Source: an uncultured Akkermansia sp. (GTDB taxonomy: Bacteria > Verrucomicrobiota > Verrucomicrobiia > Verrucomicrobiales > Akkermansiaceae). From it: 45,261 bases of DNA. This document shows, piece after piece, positions 26,213 to 36,682 of this stretch (position 1 is the stretch's first letter; every line of letters starts with the position of its first letter). The translations under genes were made by a program, and so were the position numbers. The notes under the pieces are model-generated. The model did no database searches. It was given only the letters and a program-made list of their open reading frames with translations, and had not been told where the DNA came from. The stretch is taken from assembly GCA_947589345.1 (NCBI GenBank), contig CANQAC010000013.1, forward strand, positions 1 through 45,261, read 5' to 3'.

Positions 26213-27442
26213 TCAGAATGAGAACACACCCTGAACGCCGGCCACCACGGAGTCGTTGTTGGTGGAGTAAGCCGGGTCATGGATGTACTGGATATGCGGC
26301 ATCACGCGGAAGTAACGACCGAGCTGCAAGTTGTAGTAAGCTTCCAGAACCGTCTCGCGGTTGTGAATGGTGCGAGTATCTTGGTCATTTTCGTCAGTGA
26401 GATCAGCACTGTTCTGTCCCTTGAACACGCCATAAGCGATGCCGAGATAATCATCCTTGCGGGAAGGAATGAGCTTGGCGCGCAGACCGCCGGTGAGTTC
26501 GGCGGCGTTGCCGTACTGCTGCTTGGCAGCTACGCCGCCGCGTACGAACACGGTCACATAGTCGTTGATGGTGTACTGCACGCTACCGACGACACCCCCG
26601 TTGCGGTGATGTTCTAACTCTTCACCATTATTAATATCAAGCATCTGGAAGAACGGAGTGACTTTGAGGACGCCCTTGCCTTTATGGAAGTAGTGCCCCC
26701 ACTCGCCCATCACGATGTAACCGTCGCCGTCAGAGTTGATGGGATCATAGCCGGGAGCGGTGCCTGTGCGGGTTACCCCAGCCATCACATAATTCTTCTT
26801 GCCGATCTGCACCTGAGCGAGCGCGCCCACATTGCTGTCGATGAGCGGCAGCACCGTGGAGTTGCAGAAGCCGGAGTTCATGAAAGACGTGTAGGTGTCG
26901 CTGGCAATGCCCACGGCGTCAAAGTAATCGCCAAACTTCACCATACCTGCGACGATGGCGGCCTTTTTGCCGTTGAAGAAGTGCTTGACGGCCACTTCCG
27001 GGAAGTAGAAGTTGCGCTTCCCGACAAGGTCGCGCTGGAACAAGGTAACCGAACCAATGAGGTCACTTCCGTCACGCACGGTATCCTTATCCAGCCCCCA
27101 AGAGCCGATGAACTCAACATGCAGCCATGTGCCGCCGTTGACATCGTCCTGAATGAGGCGTTGATTCACATGACCGTGCAGCAGAGCGTAGTTGAGGTTG
27201 GTGTCCTCTCCCAATTCGCTGCGGTGGACATTGTAGTAGCCGTAGGCCATATCAACATGCCACTGGGAACCGGTCTTTTGATTTGCCTTCACTTTGTAGG
27301 AAGGGGCGTCGGATGCCGGAGTCAAAAGATCCATCTTCTGCAGCAGATTTTGCTCGCAGCATGGCTGCGTCTCCGCTTGAGCTACCACCGGCATGGCTGC
27401 CAAGCCCGCCAGCGCCAAAGACATAATATGTTTTGTATTCAT
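26213..27442 (-). CDS. OprB-like carbohydrate-selective outer-membrane porin
   Basis: A 409-residue beta-barrel candidate with a type I signal (MNTKHIMSLALAGLAAMPVVAQA). The mature protein alternates short amphipathic strands rich in Tyr, Gly and Asn, and ends in FSF, the C-terminal Phe used by the barrel assembly machinery. Blocks such as GTWLHVEFIGSWGLDKD, FGDYFDAVGIASDTYTSFMN and ETVLEAYYNLQLGRYFRVMPHIQYIHDPAYS are typical of OprB-family porins, the last being the family's most conserved part. A CC pair follows the signal. The promoter places an ATG (27487, in frame) at the transcript start; see findings. Confidence 0.85.
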   Translation of the reverse strand: MNTKHIMSLALAGLAAMPVVAQAETQPCCEQNLLQKMDLLTPASDAPSYKVKANQKTGSQWHVDMAYGYYNVHRSELGEDTNLNYALLHGHVNQRLIQDDVNGGTWLHVEFIGSWGLDKDTVRDGSDLIGSVTLFQRDLVGKRNFYFPEVAVKHFFNGKKAAIVAGMVKFGDYFDAVGIASDTYTSFMNSGFCNSTVLPLIDSNVGALAQVQIGKKNYVMAGVTRTGTAPGYDPINSDGDGYIVMGEWGHYFHKGKGVLKVTPFFQMLDINNGEELEHHRNGGVVGSVQYTINDYVTVFVRGGVAAKQQYGNAAELTGGLRAKLIPSRKDDYLGIAYGVFKGQNSADLTDENDQDTRTIHNRETVLEAYYNLQLGRYFRVMPHIQYIHDPAYSTNNDSVVAGVQGVFSF

Positions 27443-27494
27443 AGGTCGCGATATGATGAAACAGGAGGGACGCGTACTCCCTTCCATGCGTTAG

Positions 27495-27785: not shown

Positions 27786-28895
27786 ATGAGAAATGAGCGA
27801 AAGGCGCTATTGTTGAGCATAGGGTATGGGAGGGGACATGAGGCGGCAGCCAGCGCGTTGGCGCAGGAGTTCAGCGAGAGAGGATGGAAAGCGAAGGTGC
27901 TTGATCTATGTGCTTTGGCCAAGCCACGCATGTTCCGCATGACTCAGCGCGTGTACCGCGCGTGTGTGCGCCGGATGCCGTGGGCGTGGGGCATAGCGTA
28001 TGCGCAAATTGATGCGACAGATTGGGCGCACATGCTCAATTTGCCGGGCATAGCAGGGAGCATGAGGCGTTTGCAAGAGCTGCTGCGAGTTGAGGAACCG
28101 GATCTCGTGGTATGCACGTATCCCCTTTATGCGTACATGCTGGATGCCCTCGCGGAGCGGGGGCAATTGAAGGGTATTCCCTATGCTGTGGTTGTGACTG
28201 ATGCCTTGCGAGTCAACAGCGCGTGGGTTCGCGCGCGCGCGCCGCTCATTTGCCTGCCCGATGAGGGGAGTTGCGCGCATGTTCAGCGGCAGTACGGAGT
28301 ATCCCCTGAAAGATTACGTAGCACGGGATTTCCGGTGCGTGCCGGTTTTAAGCCGCTGGAAACGCGCCGCCCGCCCGGGGAGCGCGGTCAGGGATTGCGC
28401 GTGGTGTACGCTGCTCATGCCCGGCTGGAGCGGGTACGCGCCGATGTTTTAGGCATGGTGAATGCGTGGCCGGAGGTGGAGGTGACCTTGCTGGCCGAGG
28501 AACGCGAGACTCGCTTGCGCGGCATGCTGGGCGATGCCGGTGGTCACGTGCGCTACGGCGGAACGATCGGGAGTATTGCTGAGGACTTGCGGCAAGCTCA
28601 CTTCTATATAGGAAAAGCCGGCGCTGCCACGGTGTTCGAGTGCTATGCCACACAAACTCCTGTGCTGGTGAATTATGTTTTACCGGGGCAGGAAGAGGGT
28701 AATCAACAGCTCCTGATGCAGGATGGGGCGGGTACATACGTGGAAAGTACGGGGGAAATGCTGCAGACCGTGGAGCGTCTGCTGGAACACGAGGCAGCGG
28801 GGTGGCAACGCATGGTGCGAGCCATGCGCACGGCGAAGCGGGGAGATGGTGCAGTCCGCACAGTAAATGCTTTATTACAACGCTTTTTTCCATGA
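27786..28895 (+). CDS. MGDG-synthase-like/MurG-like glycosyltransferase
   Basis: A 369-residue GT-B (GT28-type) enzyme. The N-terminal half matches the MGDG synthase domain: LLLSIGYGRGHEAAASALAQEF, KVLDLC and DLVVCTYPLYAYMLDAL; the C-terminal half has the donor-site pattern YIGKAGAATVFECYATQTPVLVNYVLPGQEEGNQ. Such enzymes transfer a sugar to diacylglycerol, so a membrane glycolipid synthase is the likely role. No signal peptide. It may be co-transcribed with tRNA-Gly upstream and overlaps coaX by 4 bp (ATGA). Confidence 0.85.
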   Translation: MRNERKALLLSIGYGRGHEAAASALAQEFSERGWKAKVLDLCALAKPRMFRMTQRVYRACVRRMPWAWGIAYAQIDATDWAHMLNLPGIAGSMRRLQELLRVEEPDLVVCTYPLYAYMLDALAERGQLKGIPYAVVVTDALRVNSAWVRARAPLICLPDEGSCAHVQRQYGVSPERLRSTGFPVRAGFKPLETRRPPGERGQGLRVVYAAHARLERVRADVLGMVNAWPEVEVTLLAEERETRLRGMLGDAGGHVRYGGTIGSIAEDLRQAHFYIGKAGAATVFECYATQTPVLVNYVLPGQEEGNQQLLMQDGAGTYVESTGEMLQTVERLLEHEAAGWQRMVRAMRTAKRGDGAVRTVNALLQRFFP

Positions 28896-29662
28896 AGGAG
28901 CAGACTCTCTTGATTGACAATTCCAACACGCTCACCAAGTTTACCCTGGCTGATGCCGATGGAAAACTTTGCGGCGAGAGACGGTGTTTGCCAACGGCTC
29001 GGCTTGCTCCGCCGAGTGTAAAGAGATTACTGGCTGACTGGAGTTTTGAGCAGGTCATACTCGGTTCCGTGGTGCCGACGGGACAGGATGTGCTGCAGCA
29101 AGCTTTGTCGGAGCATCCGATACATGTTGTTTGCGGCGCTGATTGTCCGAAACTGTTGCGTTTATACGAGCAACCTTCATGTGTGGGGGCGGATCGCCTC
29201 GCCAATGCTGCGGCCGTGGCTTTGCACTACCCGCTGCCGTGTCTGGCTGTGGATTTGGGAACCGCCTGCACATTGGATGCCGTCGTCATGCAGGAGGGGA
29301 CGCCGACCTTGCTCGGTGGCGCCATTGCGCCGGGCTTGCAAGCTCTCAGCCAAGCGCTTTCCCAGCGTGCGAATTTACTTCCCAAACTTTCATGGGATCA
29401 ATTAGCCCCGGCTGCGGCAGGCAGCAGCCTGTTGGGTCGCAGCACAGTTGCCGCCATGCAAGCGGGCATTGTGAGGGGGTTTGATGGTATGTTGCGGGCA
29501 TTGGTGCGGGGCATTGAAGAGGAGCTGGAGGGCAAGGTGTACGTCGTAGTGACGGGCGGAGATGCTACGCGCGGCGGAGCGTTGCCGGACTGGGCCGATG
29601 TTCATGATGCCGATCTCACTCTGAAAGGGTTGTTTGCTCTGTGGCGCCACCTCATTTGCTAG
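28892..29662 (+). CDS. coaX: Type III pantothenate kinase CoaX
   Basis: First step of coenzyme A synthesis. The 256-residue product starts LLIDNSNTLTKF (phosphate-1 loop, DxGNT-like with Ser in place of Gly), then GSVVPTG, CVGADRLANAAA, LAVDLGTACTLDAV, GGAIAPGLQALSQAL and VVTGGDA, in family order. The ATG overlaps the stop of the glycosyltransferase gene. The phosphate loop reads D-N-S-N-T instead of the commoner D-x-G-N-T. Confidence 0.92.
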   Translation: MKEQTLLIDNSNTLTKFTLADADGKLCGERRCLPTARLAPPSVKRLLADWSFEQVILGSVVPTGQDVLQQALSEHPIHVVCGADCPKLLRLYEQPSCVGADRLANAAAVALHYPLPCLAVDLGTACTLDAVVMQEGTPTLLGGAIAPGLQALSQALSQRANLLPKLSWDQLAPAAAGSSLLGRSTVAAMQAGIVRGFDGMLRALVRGIEEELEGKVYVVVTGGDATRGGALPDWADVHDADLTLKGLFALWRHLIC

Positions 29663-29690
29663 TTTTTTAATGCCACGCGCAAAATAAGAG

Positions 29691-29719
29691 TTGATTTTGT
29701 GAATCAGGTGAGGTAGAAT
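29691..29719 (+). promoter_or_regulatory. Promoter of acpP
   Basis: TTGATT (29691-29696), 17-bp spacer, TAGAAT (29714-29719). The leader is about 27 nt and has no Shine-Dalgarno sequence (ACATTATATATATG). Confidence 0.75.
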
Positions 29720-29752
29720 GGTCGTACCTCAATTCAGTCACACATTATATAT

Positions 29753-29995
29753 ATGTCCGACAATATCGAATCCCAGGTAGTTGATGTCATCGTCGAGCAG
29801 CTCGGCGTGGATCGTGAAAAGGTGACCCCTGATGCCAAGTTCATTGATGACCTCGGCGCAGATTCTCTTGACACCGTCGAACTCGTCATGACCTTCGAGG
29901 AAAAGTTTTCCGTGGAAGTGCCCGACGAGGACGCTGAGAAGCTGAAGTCTGTGAGCGACGTGGTTGCATACATCAAGGAACACAAGCAAGGCTAA
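29753..29995 (+). CDS. acpP: Acyl carrier protein
   Basis: An 80-residue acidic four-helix protein that carries fatty-acyl chains on 4'-phosphopantetheine. The attachment site is Ser38 in [15 protein letters not shown]. Works with plsX and fabI of this window. Monocistronic, with its own promoter and a hairpin 26 bp after the stop. Confidence 0.97.
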
Positions 29996-30020
29996 TCCCA
30001 GCGGGTTAATCTTGAAGTTC

Positions 30021-30063
30021 CGGGCGGTTTCCTCCTCGCGGACGGGACCGCCCGTTTCATCTT
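30021..30063 (+). terminator. Probable terminator of acpP
   Basis: CGGGCGGT (30021-30028) pairs with ACCGCCCG (30047-30054) followed by TTTCATCTT, a weak T-run. Confidence 0.6.
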
Positions 30064-30097
30064 GCTCCTGAGGGAGCCGGAGGTGCGGTAGAAAGTT

Positions 30098-30634
30098 GTG
30101 AACAAGAGCATGAACTCAGACTATGTGGGGTATGCCATACGACACACGCGTGTGTTGTATGCGCCGTACAGACGCATAGAATCCTTCGGCGAGACGCGAT
30201 TTAATTTTCGAATCCTAGCGGAGCCGATGGATCGTGTGGGAGAATGCCGGGTGAGGAGCGGATGGGTGGAGGCCGGCAAGCCTCGCATACTCAAGCCGCG
30301 GCACATGCAAGGAATGGAGACGGAGGGGTTCACCTCTGATGCGGATCGTTTTTTTTCATGGATGGCAGAGCACGGCATGCAGATACAAGCGCTCATTCAA
30401 TATGGCTTCCAATTCAAACGTTCGGAGGTGCATGAAGAATACCTGCACGAGGACATACGCGAGGTCAGCGAACGAGTGGTGAGAGAGGCTGAGAGCAGTG
30501 GTGACGCCTTGAGAGCGGTTATTGAAGGAGTCGATGATGCGTGGGAGATATCGCTGCTGCGTTTCATGATTGAGATGATTCAACAATCCCATGAGATTAA
30601 TATCTTTGATTTTAAGCGCCACGGCCTGCTGTAG
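30098..30634 (+). CDS. Conserved-looking protein of unknown function
   Basis: A 178-residue soluble protein, charged, without signal peptide. The start could be the GTG at 30098 or the ATG at 30110 (MNSDYVGYAIRHTRVLYAPYRRIESFG), the latter more likely. A beta-rich first half and a helical, acidic second half (EEYLHEDIREVSERVVREAESSGDALRAVIEG). It overlaps the LysM gene by 44 bp in another frame, so the two are co-expressed. I do not recognise the family. Confidence 0.65.
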   Translation: MNKSMNSDYVGYAIRHTRVLYAPYRRIESFGETRFNFRILAEPMDRVGECRVRSGWVEAGKPRILKPRHMQGMETEGFTSDADRFFSWMAEHGMQIQALIQYGFQFKRSEVHEEYLHEDIREVSERVVREAESSGDALRAVIEGVDDAWEISLLRFMIEMIQQSHEINIFDFKRHGLL

Positions 30635-31427
30635 TGCGTTGCTGCAAGCCCAGCAGAACTATTCTCTATGGCCGCGCCGCCCGGCTGAATTGGAGCAGGC
30701 GCAGCGGTTTTTCGCCCAGCGGCAGGATGATCAGGCGCTTTCTTTGCTTCAGCCCTTCATCAACAAGCGGGGATTAGCCGGACACGAGGCTCGACAGCTG
30801 GTGGGGCAGATCCGTGTGCGACGGTACTTGAGTGCAGCCAATCCCAACCTGAGGCGGCACACTGTGCGCCGCGGGGAGAATTTGGATCGCATCGCTACGG
30901 CTTACAACAGCTCTCCGGAGTTGATTATGTTGATTAACAGGATGACCAATCCATCGGATCTTAAGATTGGGCAAAGCCTCGGGGTCGCGCCTGCAAACTT
31001 GCGGATGGAGCTGCATCTTGCTGATCTTGAGATCACGCTTTGGGATGGCCGCATTCTGGTTGCGGCGTATAATGTGAGTCCTTCCGTGGATCTTGTGAAA
31101 CAAGGGAAAAATGAAGAAACTGTCCTCACCGACCGCGAAGGTGAAATTAACGGCTCGCGTGTGCCGCGCGCCTCGGCTCTCTTTGCTTCGTCGGATCGCA
31201 TGCTCACCTTTTCCAATGGGTTGGTTTTGATCAACAGTACACATCGCCCGCCTCGAGCTGCTTATGTGCAGATGCAGCGGCGAGATCTCAACGAACTTTC
31301 CATGCTCATTCGTGGCGGGGCTCGTCTGTCCTTGGTGCGCGATGAGGAAAGTTATGATCCTTTTGCGACGTCTCCGACAGAAGAGCTCAAGCAGACGGAA
31401 AAGAAAAACCGCACGCGGTCAAGATAA
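30591..31427 (+). CDS. Secreted LysM-domain protein, L,D-transpeptidase-like without catalytic motif
   Basis: A 278-residue exported protein (signal MRLISLILSATACCSALLQA). After a helical linker, a LysM peptidoglycan-binding repeat is visible at about residues 88-132 (HTVRRGENLDRIATAYNSSPELIMLINRM, then LKIGQSLGV). The following LADLEITLWDGRILVAAYNVSP resembles the first strands of YkuD-type L,D-transpeptidases, which often follow LysM, but no HxxxxxSxGCxR-like active site appears. It may be a cell-wall-bound, catalytically dead relative. Confidence 0.75.
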   Translation: MRLISLILSATACCSALLQAQQNYSLWPRRPAELEQAQRFFAQRQDDQALSLLQPFINKRGLAGHEARQLVGQIRVRRYLSAANPNLRRHTVRRGENLDRIATAYNSSPELIMLINRMTNPSDLKIGQSLGVAPANLRMELHLADLEITLWDGRILVAAYNVSPSVDLVKQGKNEETVLTDREGEINGSRVPRASALFASSDRMLTFSNGLVLINSTHRPPRAAYVQMQRRDLNELSMLIRGGARLSLVRDEESYDPFATSPTEELKQTEKKNRTRSR

Positions 31428-31495: not shown

Positions 31496-32326
31496 TCAGC
31501 GACGTTGACGTCCGGCAGGCGCGGGTGATTTTTTTCTGGGACGAATGCCGATGTAGTTGCGTACAGATTTGAACCCGGGGCGATAGATGCCGGCATCCTT
31601 ATCCCAGTACGCACTTGAGCTGCCACCGTCCATATTGAGCGCTGTACGTACACGGAATTTTCCCAGGCACCCGGGTTGCAGCAGAATGTTTGCCAATTCG
31701 TGCAGAGAGAGAGGCGATGTAATGGCAAGGCACCAGTTGCCTTCTCCATCCGTTGCCACCAAGGTGCGCATTGCTTTGCGCGTACGCTCCAAACCCGCCA
31801 CCGCGTGAAATTGGTCGATGAGGAAAGGTCCGCCTTGTATCGCCTCGTGCATGTGTTGCGGTGACAAGCGCAACGCGGTACTGCGGTCCAGAGAGATGGA
31901 CACACCCGTGTCATACAAAGTACCAGCTACGGTAAATGAGCCGGTCGAGAAAGGGGCAATGCTTCGGGAAGCGTGGCGCAGCAGACCGATAGGCGAACGT
32001 CGGGCAGAGGCGGCGAAGTAGCCGCCGTTGATGCCGGCTACACAGTTGTTGCGGCGCATGGCCTGCTCCAGGTTGCCGTAGACAGGAGTTGCGTCACCTT
32101 CATCCACAATGCACAGTTCGTATTCCGAGGCTCGAAAAAAATGCGCTTCAATACGGTAACCTTTAAGCTCGCCTTGGAGCAATCCCACCAGTCCGTTGTT
32201 TGTCGCGTAATCCTTGCTCTGAAAAACAGCGTGCTGCGCCTTGCTCGTTCCCCCCACAATGAGCAAGGCTCCTGCCAGACCGTTCAGCAGGGTTCTCAGC
32301 AGAGGGACAAGGAGATGCGCACGCAT
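31496..32326 (-). CDS. NAGPA-type phosphodiester glycosidase, exported
   Basis: A 276-residue exported protein with an N-terminal hydrophobic anchor or signal (about 5-28). The DUF2233/NAGPA blocks are present: NNCVAGINGGYFA, IQGGPFLID, RTLVATDGEGNWCLAITSPLSLHELANIL and VRTALNMDGGSSSAYW. In mammals the founding member uncovers mannose-6-phosphate by removing GlcNAc from a phosphodiester; bacterial homologues act on cell-surface or spore glycans. Last gene of a three-gene operon, 26 bp after the thioredoxin-like gene. Confidence 0.85.
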   Translation of the reverse strand: MRAHLLVPLLRTLLNGLAGALLIVGGTSKAQHAVFQSKDYATNNGLVGLLQGELKGYRIEAHFFRASEYELCIVDEGDATPVYGNLEQAMRRNNCVAGINGGYFAASARRSPIGLLRHASRSIAPFSTGSFTVAGTLYDTGVSISLDRSTALRLSPQHMHEAIQGGPFLIDQFHAVAGLERTRKAMRTLVATDGEGNWCLAITSPLSLHELANILLQPGCLGKFRVRTALNMDGGSSSAYWDKDAGIYRPGFKSVRNYIGIRPRKKSPAPAGRQRR

Positions 32327-32352
32327 GAATCACGGGGGAGAGGCAATGTGGT

Positions 32353-33468
32353 TTATTCAACATTGACATTGCGTTCCGTTTTTTTGATTTCGCGATCGTG
32401 TTGCCGACGCTTTTTTTCGTCTTCTTTTTCCTGATTACGGCGGGTGCGGCGTTCGTCCACGCTTTCATTAGCGCGCTCCTGGCTCCAGAGGGCGAGCAGG
32501 CGGGGCATGGCGCGACCGTAGAAGCTGTTCGGGTCGATCTTCATGTTGGCATTGATCATATCCTTCAGGCGCTTGCTGCCGCCCTCTTCACGTCTGGCTT
32601 GCCCGATGAGCAGGCAGTACGCCGCTTGGCGGTCCTCCGTGCGCAGAGCCGTGTCGTTGACGATTTTCATGCTTTCCACCATGAGATCCTTCAGCGTTGT
32701 GTGAAAGTCTTGCTTCAGGAATCCATCCTTGGTATCCATCTGCTTGTAAAGGAATTGAAGGGCGCTGTGCTCATTGCGGCGTATTAAGCCCGTGGTGTCT
32801 TTGGGATCGGCTTCTTTCAACATATCTACCAACCCACTGGGCTTTTCGATCGGGAGTTCTCCGATTTCGCCGAGTACCTTTGCCTTTTCTACACCCTGCA
32901 GGGTAGCTGCTTTATTCATCAACTCGACAGCTTTGCGGTGAGCCGCCAGTTTCTGGGCGATATTTTGAATGCCTGTTGCTCCTTTCTCATCGCCCAGAAA
33001 ATCTGAGCCGGGCAGGTTGGCGTACATCGTGCCATTCTTATCCACCATCATAACCGTGGGACATACACTGAAGGGCACGGGAGGCATGCCCGCTGAAATA
33101 CGGTTAGCTTCCTCCTCCTGCTCCGGGGAGGGATTTTCATAAATCGGCACTGCCACCAGTATTGCCTGCCCTGTCGCCTTTTCCAAATTTTCCGTATTCC
33201 AAAATGATTTCAGCATGCGTACGCTGCGTTGGTTCCAATCCGGTCCATAGCAAAAAGCAATCACACCATCATCGCCGGCGGCGCTCAGAGCGTCCTGAAA
33301 TGTTTCGGGACGGCGCGGGTTCTTGGATGCATCAGCTTTTTCGGGAGCGACCGGCGGTTGCTCAGCCGAGGGTTCCTCACTCTGGGCGGGGCAGAGCGGA
33401 GCTGCGGCCGAAAATACCGCGCAGAGCGCGATGAGCAGGGAAGTTTTATTTGCCTTTTTTGTTGTCAT
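32353..33468 (-). CDS. Secreted thioredoxin-fold-like protein
   Basis: A 371-residue exported protein (signal MTTKKANKTSLLIALCAVFSAAAPLCPAQ). Residues about 55-165 resemble a thioredoxin fold: GVIAFCYGPDWNQRSVRMLKSFW, ILVAVPIYENP and FSVCPTVMMVDKNGTMYA, with a cis-Pro-like CPT position, but CxxC is absent (GPDWNQ replaces it). The remainder is helical and ends in a strongly charged Arg/Lys/Glu tail (QERANESVDERRTRRNQEKE...). The ATG at 33468 overlaps the preceding gene by 23 bp. A structural or regulatory role rather than disulfide chemistry is likely. Confidence 0.7.
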   Translation of the reverse strand: MTTKKANKTSLLIALCAVFSAAAPLCPAQSEEPSAEQPPVAPEKADASKNPRRPETFQDALSAAGDDGVIAFCYGPDWNQRSVRMLKSFWNTENLEKATGQAILVAVPIYENPSPEQEEEANRISAGMPPVPFSVCPTVMMVDKNGTMYANLPGSDFLGDEKGATGIQNIAQKLAAHRKAVELMNKAATLQGVEKAKVLGEIGELPIEKPSGLVDMLKEADPKDTTGLIRRNEHSALQFLYKQMDTKDGFLKQDFHTTLKDLMVESMKIVNDTALRTEDRQAAYCLLIGQARREEGGSKRLKDMINANMKIDPNSFYGRAMPRLLALWSQERANESVDERRTRRNQEKEDEKKRRQHDREIKKTERNVNVE

Positions 33469-36070
33469 ATACCAGAATAGCTTTGAAGTTGATGCCCTGC
33501 AACTGTTCTGCCCCGGAGTCAATGCGTATGTAACGCGCCTGAGGGCAGTCACGTTCCACGGTCAGTACGATGCATGGGTTTTCTGAGGATTCGGGGAGAT
33601 TGGCCAGGAGCTTCCAGTTCTTACCATCCATCGATGTTTCCACAAACCACTCGCGGTAGGCTGTGCAGTCCGGCCCCGTGGGGACAATGACGATTCCCCC
33701 GATGTTGGCGCGTTTAGGCAGCTCCACAGTCACCTTGCGGTGTTTTCCTTTTTCTGAGATGATAGCTCCACCCTGTGGGGTGAGGGCAGCGGCATGAGTG
33801 ACAATGCTATCCTGTTTTGGGGCGTACATGTCCAGCATCACCAACCCTCCGGGAGAGATGAGTTTGCCGGGAGGAGGCGTAAAGTCGGGCATGTTGTTTT
33901 CTTCCGGATTCAGGTAGTCCTTGCTGTATTTATTGGCGATATCCAGGTAATACTCCTTGTCGCGATTATTCCCGCGCGGGTTTTCAAGAGAAAGAGCCGT
34001 CATCTCCTCGGCCGCCCGGATAACGGAGGCTTTCAGCAGTACCTGCGTATCATTGTAATTGGGGTCGTCTTTCGGGAGGTCGTCGAGCAGAGAATCAACC
34101 ATGCCGCGTACGCGTTCCCCGGTACTGCGGTTATCCTGGTATGCACGCCGCACAGCCCAACTCAGAGCGGGACCGAACGCCGGACGCCGACGCACACTAT
34201 CTGCAATCATGCGGAAATAATCGAGTTTAACGGGTACCGCCTTGCCGAGCGAGTCAAACTGCATGGAGAGCATCTTCTCCATGTCCCACTCCGCTTTCTC
34301 ATTTTCATTGAGGTTGCCGAAGTAGCTCTTGAAGGCCACCATTTTTTGCTTTCCGGTCTTGAGCGTGGTGAGCAAGGTGGGATAGATGGTCTCCGTGAGA
34401 TAGCGGGCGCACATTTCCGGGTGTTTAGGAGCGACGGCTGAGCATATAAAGTCGTTGACACCGAGATATTTGGATGGTCGTTTGCTAAGATATTTTGCCG
34501 CCGTATCCAGGTACATTCCCCACACCGGGTTGTAGAGAGGTTGCATGGTGACGGCCATCTCGTACAGTTTGAGTGCATTGATGGGATTTTTATTCTTTGC
34601 GAGAAGGTTGGCAAGCGAGCATATCATTTGCGCATCGCGGGTGCGCTGGCCGTCCTTATACATATCCGTCATCATTTGCAACGCGCTCCACTGATGCAGC
34701 CCCCAAGTGAGGTAGTGAGGCTGGCGTTTTTCGGAGATGGTGTTGGTGGGGTGCCATTCATCGTCCACATACACGGCGTAGGCGCAGTGACCGGGTTCTC
34801 CCATCGTGAAAGCGGGCACCCCGTTGGAGCAGGCCGAAGACGCGCCGAAGTGGGATAATCCACCGCACACGGCTCCGATATCGCGCGTCTCCTTGGCAAA
34901 CAGACCGGGATAAAGCACATCGAAGGGCTGGTAGTAATAGTTTGAGAAGATGTCGTCTCCGTACTTGTTGAGGGGGAGATAGGGAACTTGACTGCACATG
35001 TCCAAGTAAGCGCGAGCAGGGGCTGAGCAGTTGTCGCGTTGCCAGCGCATGCTGCTGGCGGTGCCGAAGGGGTTGTTGCCTCTCCATCCGCAGGGGAAGT
35101 GCATGAGCCAGTCCGGTAGATTGCCGAAGGATGTGTTGAGCAGTCCCTCATCCCAACTTTGGGCGAAGAAGAGGTAGCGCTCGCGCGCCAGGCGGAAGTT
35201 ATCTTTCACCGGGGCCTTTTTCTTGCCGGAGTCGGGGGTAATGTCGGGCAAGGGAATGCCGGTGTCCTTGTAGTACTTGATCTGCTCTTTAGTGAGGGGC
35301 GTTCCCGAGCCATACCAACCGTTGCGGGTAAACTCAACGGCTACAGCAGCCGCAATGCGACGCTTCACACCGGGCTTCACCTTCACTTTGTCCATGAGCC
35401 GGTCATGGTCCATGTCCTTGTCGACTTTCCTGAACTGCTGCACCATAGCCAACGCAATTTCCGGCTTCTCCATCTCTCCGTCGTAGACAAAGGAACTGAT
35501 CCACGGCAAGTTATTGAGCAACTTTGCCAGTGAGTCGGCGGTCTCTTTATCCTTCATCAGCTCGGACAATGCGTCCAAATCTGCCCGGTGAAGCAACTCC
35601 CATTGTGCAATCTGCAAACGGTTTTCCGGATCGCGTATGAAAGCGAGTATGCGGTCGCGATTCGGGGTGCCGATGCGAGAACGGAGGCGGCTGGTCAGCT
35701 TGCGCTCAAGCGCTTTGGGCTTGCGCCACTCATTGGGGCGGATCACGCCCTTGACGTCCTCCTCGTGTACAGGACGTCGACCGCGATCCTCACCCAGCAC
35801 ACGGTTGATTTGGGTAATTTCCGCACTCTCCGGATCCTTTTCCTCTTCGTCTTCCTGGCCATCCTCAACAACAGGCTCCGGCTCAGGTTCGGGAGTGTTT
35901 TGGACGACTCGCTGAGGCTCGTTTTTGCGTATGTCGATCTCAAAAAAACTGTCCTCTTCCTTTGTTTGTTGAACCTGTTTCTCTCCGCCCGGGAACAACA
36001 TCGGATCTACCATATAACCCACCACCAGCATCACCAGGATGAGTACGACGTAGGATAATCTCCACTTCAT
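33446..36070 (-). CDS. Membrane-anchored transglutaminase-like protein with C-terminal discoidin-type domain
   Basis: An 874-residue protein: N-terminal membrane anchor (5-22, LSYVVLILVMLVVGYMV), a low-complexity acidic Pro/Glu segment (about 57-85), a long helical region (100-380), then a transglutaminase-like core with Cys402 in DIGAVCGGLSHFGASSACSNGVPA, His428 in GEPGHCAYAVYVDDEW and a following HPTNT. A helical repeat region follows (TPR-like, 440-720) and a F5/8-type-C-like sheet (about 760-874: VTVELPKRANIGGIVIVP, WFVETSMDGKNWKLLA, ARYIRIDS). The core Cys-His pair suggests a protease, peptide-amidase or cross-linking enzyme outside the cell. Confidence 0.75.
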   Translation of the reverse strand: MKWRLSYVVLILVMLVVGYMVDPMLFPGGEKQVQQTKEEDSFFEIDIRKNEPQRVVQNTPEPEPEPVVEDGQEDEEEKDPESAEITQINRVLGEDRGRRPVHEEDVKGVIRPNEWRKPKALERKLTSRLRSRIGTPNRDRILAFIRDPENRLQIAQWELLHRADLDALSELMKDKETADSLAKLLNNLPWISSFVYDGEMEKPEIALAMVQQFRKVDKDMDHDRLMDKVKVKPGVKRRIAAAVAVEFTRNGWYGSGTPLTKEQIKYYKDTGIPLPDITPDSGKKKAPVKDNFRLARERYLFFAQSWDEGLLNTSFGNLPDWLMHFPCGWRGNNPFGTASSMRWQRDNCSAPARAYLDMCSQVPYLPLNKYGDDIFSNYYYQPFDVLYPGLFAKETRDIGAVCGGLSHFGASSACSNGVPAFTMGEPGHCAYAVYVDDEWHPTNTISEKRQPHYLTWGLHQWSALQMMTDMYKDGQRTRDAQMICSLANLLAKNKNPINALKLYEMAVTMQPLYNPVWGMYLDTAAKYLSKRPSKYLGVNDFICSAVAPKHPEMCARYLTETIYPTLLTTLKTGKQKMVAFKSYFGNLNENEKAEWDMEKMLSMQFDSLGKAVPVKLDYFRMIADSVRRRPAFGPALSWAVRRAYQDNRSTGERVRGMVDSLLDDLPKDDPNYNDTQVLLKASVIRAAEEMTALSLENPRGNNRDKEYYLDIANKYSKDYLNPEENNMPDFTPPPGKLISPGGLVMLDMYAPKQDSIVTHAAALTPQGGAIISEKGKHRKVTVELPKRANIGGIVIVPTGPDCTAYREWFVETSMDGKNWKLLANLPESSENPCIVLTVERDCPQARYIRIDSGAEQLQGINFKAILVYDNKKGK

Positions 36071-36076
36071 GCTTCT

Positions 36077-36105
36077 TTGATAGCAAATTTCACCCGCTTT
36101 GTCAA
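36077..36105 (-). promoter_or_regulatory. Leaderless-type promoter of the transglutaminase operon
   Basis: Minus strand TTGACA (36105-36100), 17-bp spacer, TATCAA (36082-36077), then 6 nt and the ATG at 36070. The first 12 bases TTGACAAAGCGG also begin the bioB promoter. Confidence 0.75.
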
Positions 36106-36325: not shown

Positions 36326-36682
36326 TCAGCCTTTGATCAAACGGCTCAATATCCACAAGATCAACAGGACAAGGAGTAGAGGTCCTGCCACGGAGATCAG
36401 CCCGATGAAGAGAGCGAGCAACACCGTAACCACGGCGACGAAAAGTAAGACGCCGCGCCAGCTCGTGTGCCGCATAAGTAGGCGCCACAATGACGGATTG
36501 GCCTCTTCTTCCTCCTCCTTTCTCAGATCAACTTCGGAGAAGTGGCGCCAAGTCAACGAATCTGCCCGTCGCACCCATGTGCTGTCCTCTATGGAGCCTT
36601 CAGTGCGCAGACGCAGCAAGTCGTACCCGGTGACAGGTCCTATCTTTTCTTTCCCCGTGTCGTAGTAAAATTGGCGAGCCAT
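36326..36682 (-). CDS. GYF_2-domain membrane protein
   Basis: A 118-residue protein. Residues 3-50 form a GYF_2-type domain (QFYYDTGKEKIGPVTGYDLLRLRTEGSIEDSTWVRRADSLTWRHF), which in related proteins mediates protein contacts. A Glu-rich linker and two closely spaced membrane segments (VLLFVAVVTVLLALFIGL, AGPLLLVLLILWIL) follow. The ATG is 4 bp after the lpdA stop, so it is in the lpdA transcript. Function unknown. Confidence 0.8.
   Translation of the reverse strand: MARQFYYDTGKEKIGPVTGYDLLRLRTEGSIEDSTWVRRADSLTWRHFSEVDLRKEEEEEANPSLWRLLMRHTSWRGVLLFVAVVTVLLALFIGLISVAGPLLLVLLILWILSRLIKG

Follow-up and report, generated by a model that had tools for sequence, protein, structure and literature searches.

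The window analysed here, 45,261 nucleotides of contig CANQAC010000013.1 from an uncultured Akkermansia sp. (assembly GCA_947589345.1, a 2.25-Mb genome in 102 contigs), carries three tightly spaced minus-strand genes, and the question it raises is which of them belong together and what their products might do in the cell envelope. The nearest named relatives of this genome, MAGs of uncultured Akkermansia, bear 'Lapin' isolate names, which we read as pointing to a rabbit gut origin. The initial annotation had treated all three genes as one unit. Its description of the layout agrees with the ORF coordinates, with a 23-bp overlap between the first two genes and a 26-bp gap before the third, and the export signals or anchors that it saw on all three products correspond to a hydrophobic N-terminus in each. 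We refer to the genes as TGL, TRX and NAGPA:

36077 to 36105, minus strand: promoter TTGACA-17-TATCAA, recognized by alignment conservation of its -35 element
33446 to 36070, minus strand: ORF for TGL, a membrane-anchored transglutaminase-like/discoidin protein of 874 amino acids
32353 to 33468, minus strand: ORF for TRX, a thioredoxin-like protein of 371 amino acids without CxxC, with an N-terminal export signal and a helical C-terminal part
31496 to 32326, minus strand: ORF for a NAGPA-like phosphodiester glycosidase of 276 amino acids, a neighbour that we judge to lie outside the module

The promoter proposed ahead of TGL is real. Its -35 hexamer TTGACA is identical in 9/9 aligned Akkermansia relatives and its -10 hexamer is near-identical in the closest ones, and we accept it on this alignment footprint despite the fact that a consensus scan misses it; the yield of that scan was not above that of shuffled sequence, and it is thus uninformative. 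TATCAA ends 6 nt from the TGL start codon, which puts the predicted +1 on the ATG at 36070 or adjacent to it and therefore suggests that the TGL mRNA may be leaderless. Start-site mapping in A. muciniphila assigned about 10% of the sites to leaderless transcripts (PMC4782308). Elsewhere in the window, a small GYF_2-like/membrane protein gene (36326-36676, minus strand) lies between TGL and the dihydrolipoyl dehydrogenase gene and is kept in locus L063, and an OprB-family porin (73 bits) is encoded at 26213-27487 on the minus strand.

TRX lies directly after TGL in 78 of the 80 relatives' loci fetched from named genomes, Opitutales/Opitutia included; the two exceptions are L079, which stops at a contig edge, and L138, which has a TGL gene with no adjoining TRX. 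The window's genome has four copies of TGL (three paralogues), each with a TRX-like gene directly behind it in the same orientation (4/4). The median gap over 83 pairs is -3 bp, with half of them overlapping, and the 23-bp overlap itself is preserved in many orthologues of the window's TGL subfamily. TGL and TRX distances correlate over the same 83 pairs (Mantel rho 0.81; maximum of 500 permutations 0.18), and the subfamilies of the two proteins largely agree (ARI 0.92). Further families of the phylum also have the two genes side by side (L198, L209-L212, L215), and two families have TRX and TGL joined in a single ORF (L203 3754-6861, L204 376-3510, L205 3995-7579, L213 2120-5695 and L214 4291-7437). 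Clustering of gene neighbours gave no single conserved TGL partner beyond TRX. TGL and TRX are thus a conserved two-gene unit, coupled by adjacency, by matching paralogue histories and by fusion in distant lineages. Where the initial annotation looked to conserved linkage of the genes in relatives, the TGL-TRX part is borne out and the NAGPA part is not (below).

Among 337 genomes sampled across the phylum, the TGL profile matches 118 and the TRX profile 131; both are upper bounds, as the first count includes genomes matched by the discoidin part alone and the second may include DsbH-like proteins other than TRX. All Akkermansia genomes in this sample have TGL. In three related Akkermansia genomes TGL-TRX pairs lie directly 3' of ftsA-ftsZ (L044 4821-15285, L047 773-7489, L101 2836-9658), and the window's own genome has two pairs in tandem behind ftsA-ftsZ.

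The architecture of TGL was examined in an AlphaFold2 model built with 55 relatives (pLDDT 87.8). A membrane helix is followed by an acidic, proline-rich linker to about residue 110 (disordered, low confidence), helices to about residue 290, the core elements, a TPR-like helical region (residues 461-719) and a C-terminal beta domain. The parts to which we refer below are as follows:

35996 to 36067, minus strand: TGL membrane helix, residues 2-25 (model and hydrophobic N-terminus)
34745 to 34900, minus strand: TGL core elements, residues 391-442 (alignment, model and profile comparison)
34867 to 34865, minus strand: codon of Cys402, within the core
34789 to 34787, minus strand: codon of His428, within the core
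33455 to 33883, minus strand: TGL C-terminal discoidin/CBM32-like domain, residues 730-872 (fold search and Pfam)

The core had been called transglutaminase-like on the strength of Cys402 and His428. The numbering of these residues is right, and both are invariant in 55/55 aligned homologues, as are Cys429 and Trp439; Cys402 stands in GVCG and His428 in GEPGHC, both strongly conserved motifs. A profile of the TGL core aligns the two residues with the catalytic Cys and His of same-phylum Transglut_core proteins, with a profile-profile score of 50.5 against at most 32.5 for 60 block- and column-shuffled nulls; with the bridging sequence L248 removed the score is 40.7 against at most 26.1 for 60 nulls. 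Two intermediates, L219 and L220, are recognized by the TGL profile (E 4e-26 and 1e-22) and also by PF01841, with E about 8e-4, just below its cut-off. The predicted order of the core elements also fits a transglutaminase core, with a helix from residue 403 and strands at 420-423, 431-435 and 438-442. As in Transglut_core, the Cys is placed at the start of a helix, the His on the following sheet and a Trp after the His strand. Direct searches were silent: Pfam found no PF01841 match in the window's TGL and 2/55 among its relatives (best E 0.029), a PDB sequence search with the core-only profile gave no significant transglutaminase and only chance-level CARM1 matches, the same search was no more helpful for the core when run with the single protein, and the Foldseek/VIA-align lists for the whole protein were taken up by BIRC6 and CBM32 matches, with no transglutaminase row, an outcome still compatible with a transglutaminase fold in the core. 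The PDB matches of the full-length profile are to TPR and CBM32 domains. By its profile relationships the core is transglutaminase-like. It differs from Transglut_core in having H-C in place of H-A-W, in its attached helical and CBM32 domains, in its dedicated TRX partner and in the third catalytic position, four residues after the Trp, where the usual Asp is not conserved: 32 of the 55 homologues have Tyr, 18 have Asn and 5 have Phe, and the window's subfamily has Asn.

The C-terminal sheet, which had been likened to F5/8-type-C domains, is indeed a discoidin jelly-roll (Z up to 15.9 over residues 734-871), with Z of 13-16 over 122-137 residues to the F5/8 type C/CBM32 modules 4a42, 2jd9 and 3le0. 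PF00754 matches 51/55 relatives; unlike typical members, the window's copy scores 21.4 bits, below the cut-off of 28.2. Proteins with the transglutaminase-like core and no CBM32 domain also occur, mostly with TPR-like regions (L217 3119-4876, L218 2941-4704, L219 3130-4977, L220 3372-5339, L221 3195-5693), and in L221 the core is joined to an FGE-sulfatase domain.

Two relatives bear on where TGL resides. In L050 (3749-7303) and L216 (2308-5991) a Ser/Thr kinase domain precedes the TGL anchor; the match is 135 bits in L216 and weaker in L050 (59.6 bits), whose catalytic motifs look degenerate by eye, and the ORF adjoining these fusions upstream looks, again by eye, like an ECF sigma factor. 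Because the anchor is N-terminal and the kinase is fused ahead of it, we infer that TGL is at the periplasmic side of the inner membrane, and the surface location suggested earlier is doubtful.

TRX retains a thioredoxin frame. Its model (pLDDT 89.4) finds DsbH as the best fold match (Z 12.2, rmsd 3.5 over 123 residues) and DsbD-gamma at a Z of about 10, and its profile matches DsbH with E 6e-8; a Pfam search of the window's TRX gave no match. With DsbH (2ju5) and DsbD-gamma (2fwe) it shares the fold, periplasmic export and a proline at the cis-proline position (P137, invariant in the alignment). It differs from them in lacking CxxC, in an extra helical C-terminal region that also sets it apart from classical thioredoxins, and in being encoded with or fused to TGL. 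The absence of both redox cysteines, which had been noted for the window's copy, is general: no CxxC is present in 62/62 aligned relatives, in which the equivalent position is mostly D/N-x-x-S. In the window this stretch is:

33223 to 33234, minus strand: CxxC-equivalent stretch of TRX, N79-Q-R-S82, without cysteines (alignment)

The earlier suggestion that TRX acts as a scaffold agrees with our results in that a non-redox partner role fits. Positions 291-386 of the TRX-family profile (alignment A4), in its C-terminal part, show similarity to the C-terminal domain of a beta-N-acetylhexosaminidase (8pxt, E 6.6e-6). An extension that looks beta-rich occupies these positions in some relatives of TRX and is absent from the window's copy.

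We propose, with a probability of about 0.5, that TGL and TRX form a two-gene envelope module in which a periplasmic Cys/His enzyme acts on glycan-linked material with the help of a redox-dead thioredoxin-like chaperone or adaptor, NAGPA being unrelated. TGL would be anchored in the inner membrane and face the periplasm, where its CBM32-like domain would recognize glycan-linked envelope material; with Cys402 and His428 as its catalytic residues, it would be a hydrolase or transferase of peptide or amide bonds on that material. TRX would bind TGL, or the substrate of TGL, through its surviving cis-proline groove and, with no redox chemistry involved, would serve TGL as its dedicated chaperone or adaptor.

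Catalysis by TGL, and cross-linking above all, is not assured, since Tyr, Asn or Phe stands in place of the canonical Asp. The main rival reading is accordingly that TGL is catalytically dead and that its transglutaminase-like/TPR/CBM32 ectodomain binds or senses envelope glycans, with TRX completing the sensor. The loss of the third catalytic residue would fit such a role, as would the placement of this ectodomain behind a Ser/Thr kinase in L050 and L216 with an ECF-sigma-like frame upstream. We nevertheless think it rather unlikely, given that Cys402 and His428 are invariant within strongly conserved motifs and that Asn, the residue of the window's subfamily, can substitute at this position in Cys-His-Asn enzymes. 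Papain is an enzyme of this kind, in which Asn is able to serve in place of the third-residue Asp.

The resemblance of the core could instead mean that TGL is a true transglutaminase that cross-links envelope proteins through Gln-Lys isopeptide bonds. This we regard as improbable: the catalytic Asp is replaced, the sequence offers no hint of cross-linking, and many bacterial members of the transglutaminase-like superfamily are peptidases or proteins of unknown function. A slightly longer shot is that TRX is redox-active or monothiol in part of its family and guards Cys402 and Cys429 of TGL. Some distant members, fused ones among them, do keep the first motif cysteine as WCxxG (WCVSG or WCLPG in L203, L204, L214 and L210), and Cys429 is invariant beside His428, but all 62 aligned members, the window's copy included, lack such a cysteine.

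This leaves the third gene. Its product was rightly said to have NAGPA blocks and is an ordinary member of the NAGPA phosphodiester glycosidases, matching PF09992 with 63.1 bits over the whole domain (cut-off 25). The window and L059-L063, with TGL proteins at least 83% identical, are the only loci in which NAGPA comes after the pair in a colinear arrangement; L080 has it divergently oriented beside an inverted TGL-TRX pair, and all other pairs in the 80 loci lack it as a neighbour. In the Akkermansia loci that we inspected in detail, it is tied by synteny to a different set of genes:

28802 to 31427, plus strand: coaX - acpP - unknown - LysM block (ORFs, Pfam and synteny)

This block flanks NAGPA in the window and in those loci of the clade that are long enough to show it, and with an MGDG-synthase-like glycosyltransferase gene in front (27786-31427, plus strand; the unknown protein has 178 amino acids) it is conserved with NAGPA in Akkermansia. 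NAGPA lies by the same genes without the pair in L223, L225, L226 and L227, and the genome of L223 (G002) has its TGL orthologue elsewhere (L045). PF09992 matches 29 of 59 genus genomes, as against TGL in all Akkermansia genomes of the phylum sample. The proposal of a three-gene surface system that processes or cross-links glycopeptides, which has in its favour the close colinear spacing of the genes in the window and L059-L063, is thus largely refuted by synteny and very improbable; we reject the trio as a unit and regard NAGPA as an unrelated neighbour of the pair.

Neither NCBIfam nor PADLOC assigned TGL or TRX to a family, and open-access text yielded no description of an Akkermansia transglutaminase/thioredoxin pair; PMC12631272 only cites work on transglutaminase-treated caseinate. 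Each domain is known by itself; what we have not found described in that text is a transglutaminase-like enzyme paired across the phylum with a redox-dead thioredoxin of its own. A wider and more tentative reading, to which we give less than even odds, is that envelope processing in Verrucomicrobiota comes in several parallel versions within one cell, in each of which an anchored TGL with a glycan-binding domain would have its own redox-dead TRX, some versions being wired to a Ser/Thr kinase or encoded behind ftsA-ftsZ. If the proposed module is real, Akkermansia, a much-studied gut bacterium, and its relatives in the phylum would carry a multi-copy, unnamed envelope module that family libraries have missed. 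A thioredoxin without redox function that belongs with a single enzyme family, natural fusions included, would then be a clean test case for thioredoxin folds that act purely as partners, and the kinase fusions and the ftsZ linkage offer entry points to the cell biology of the module.
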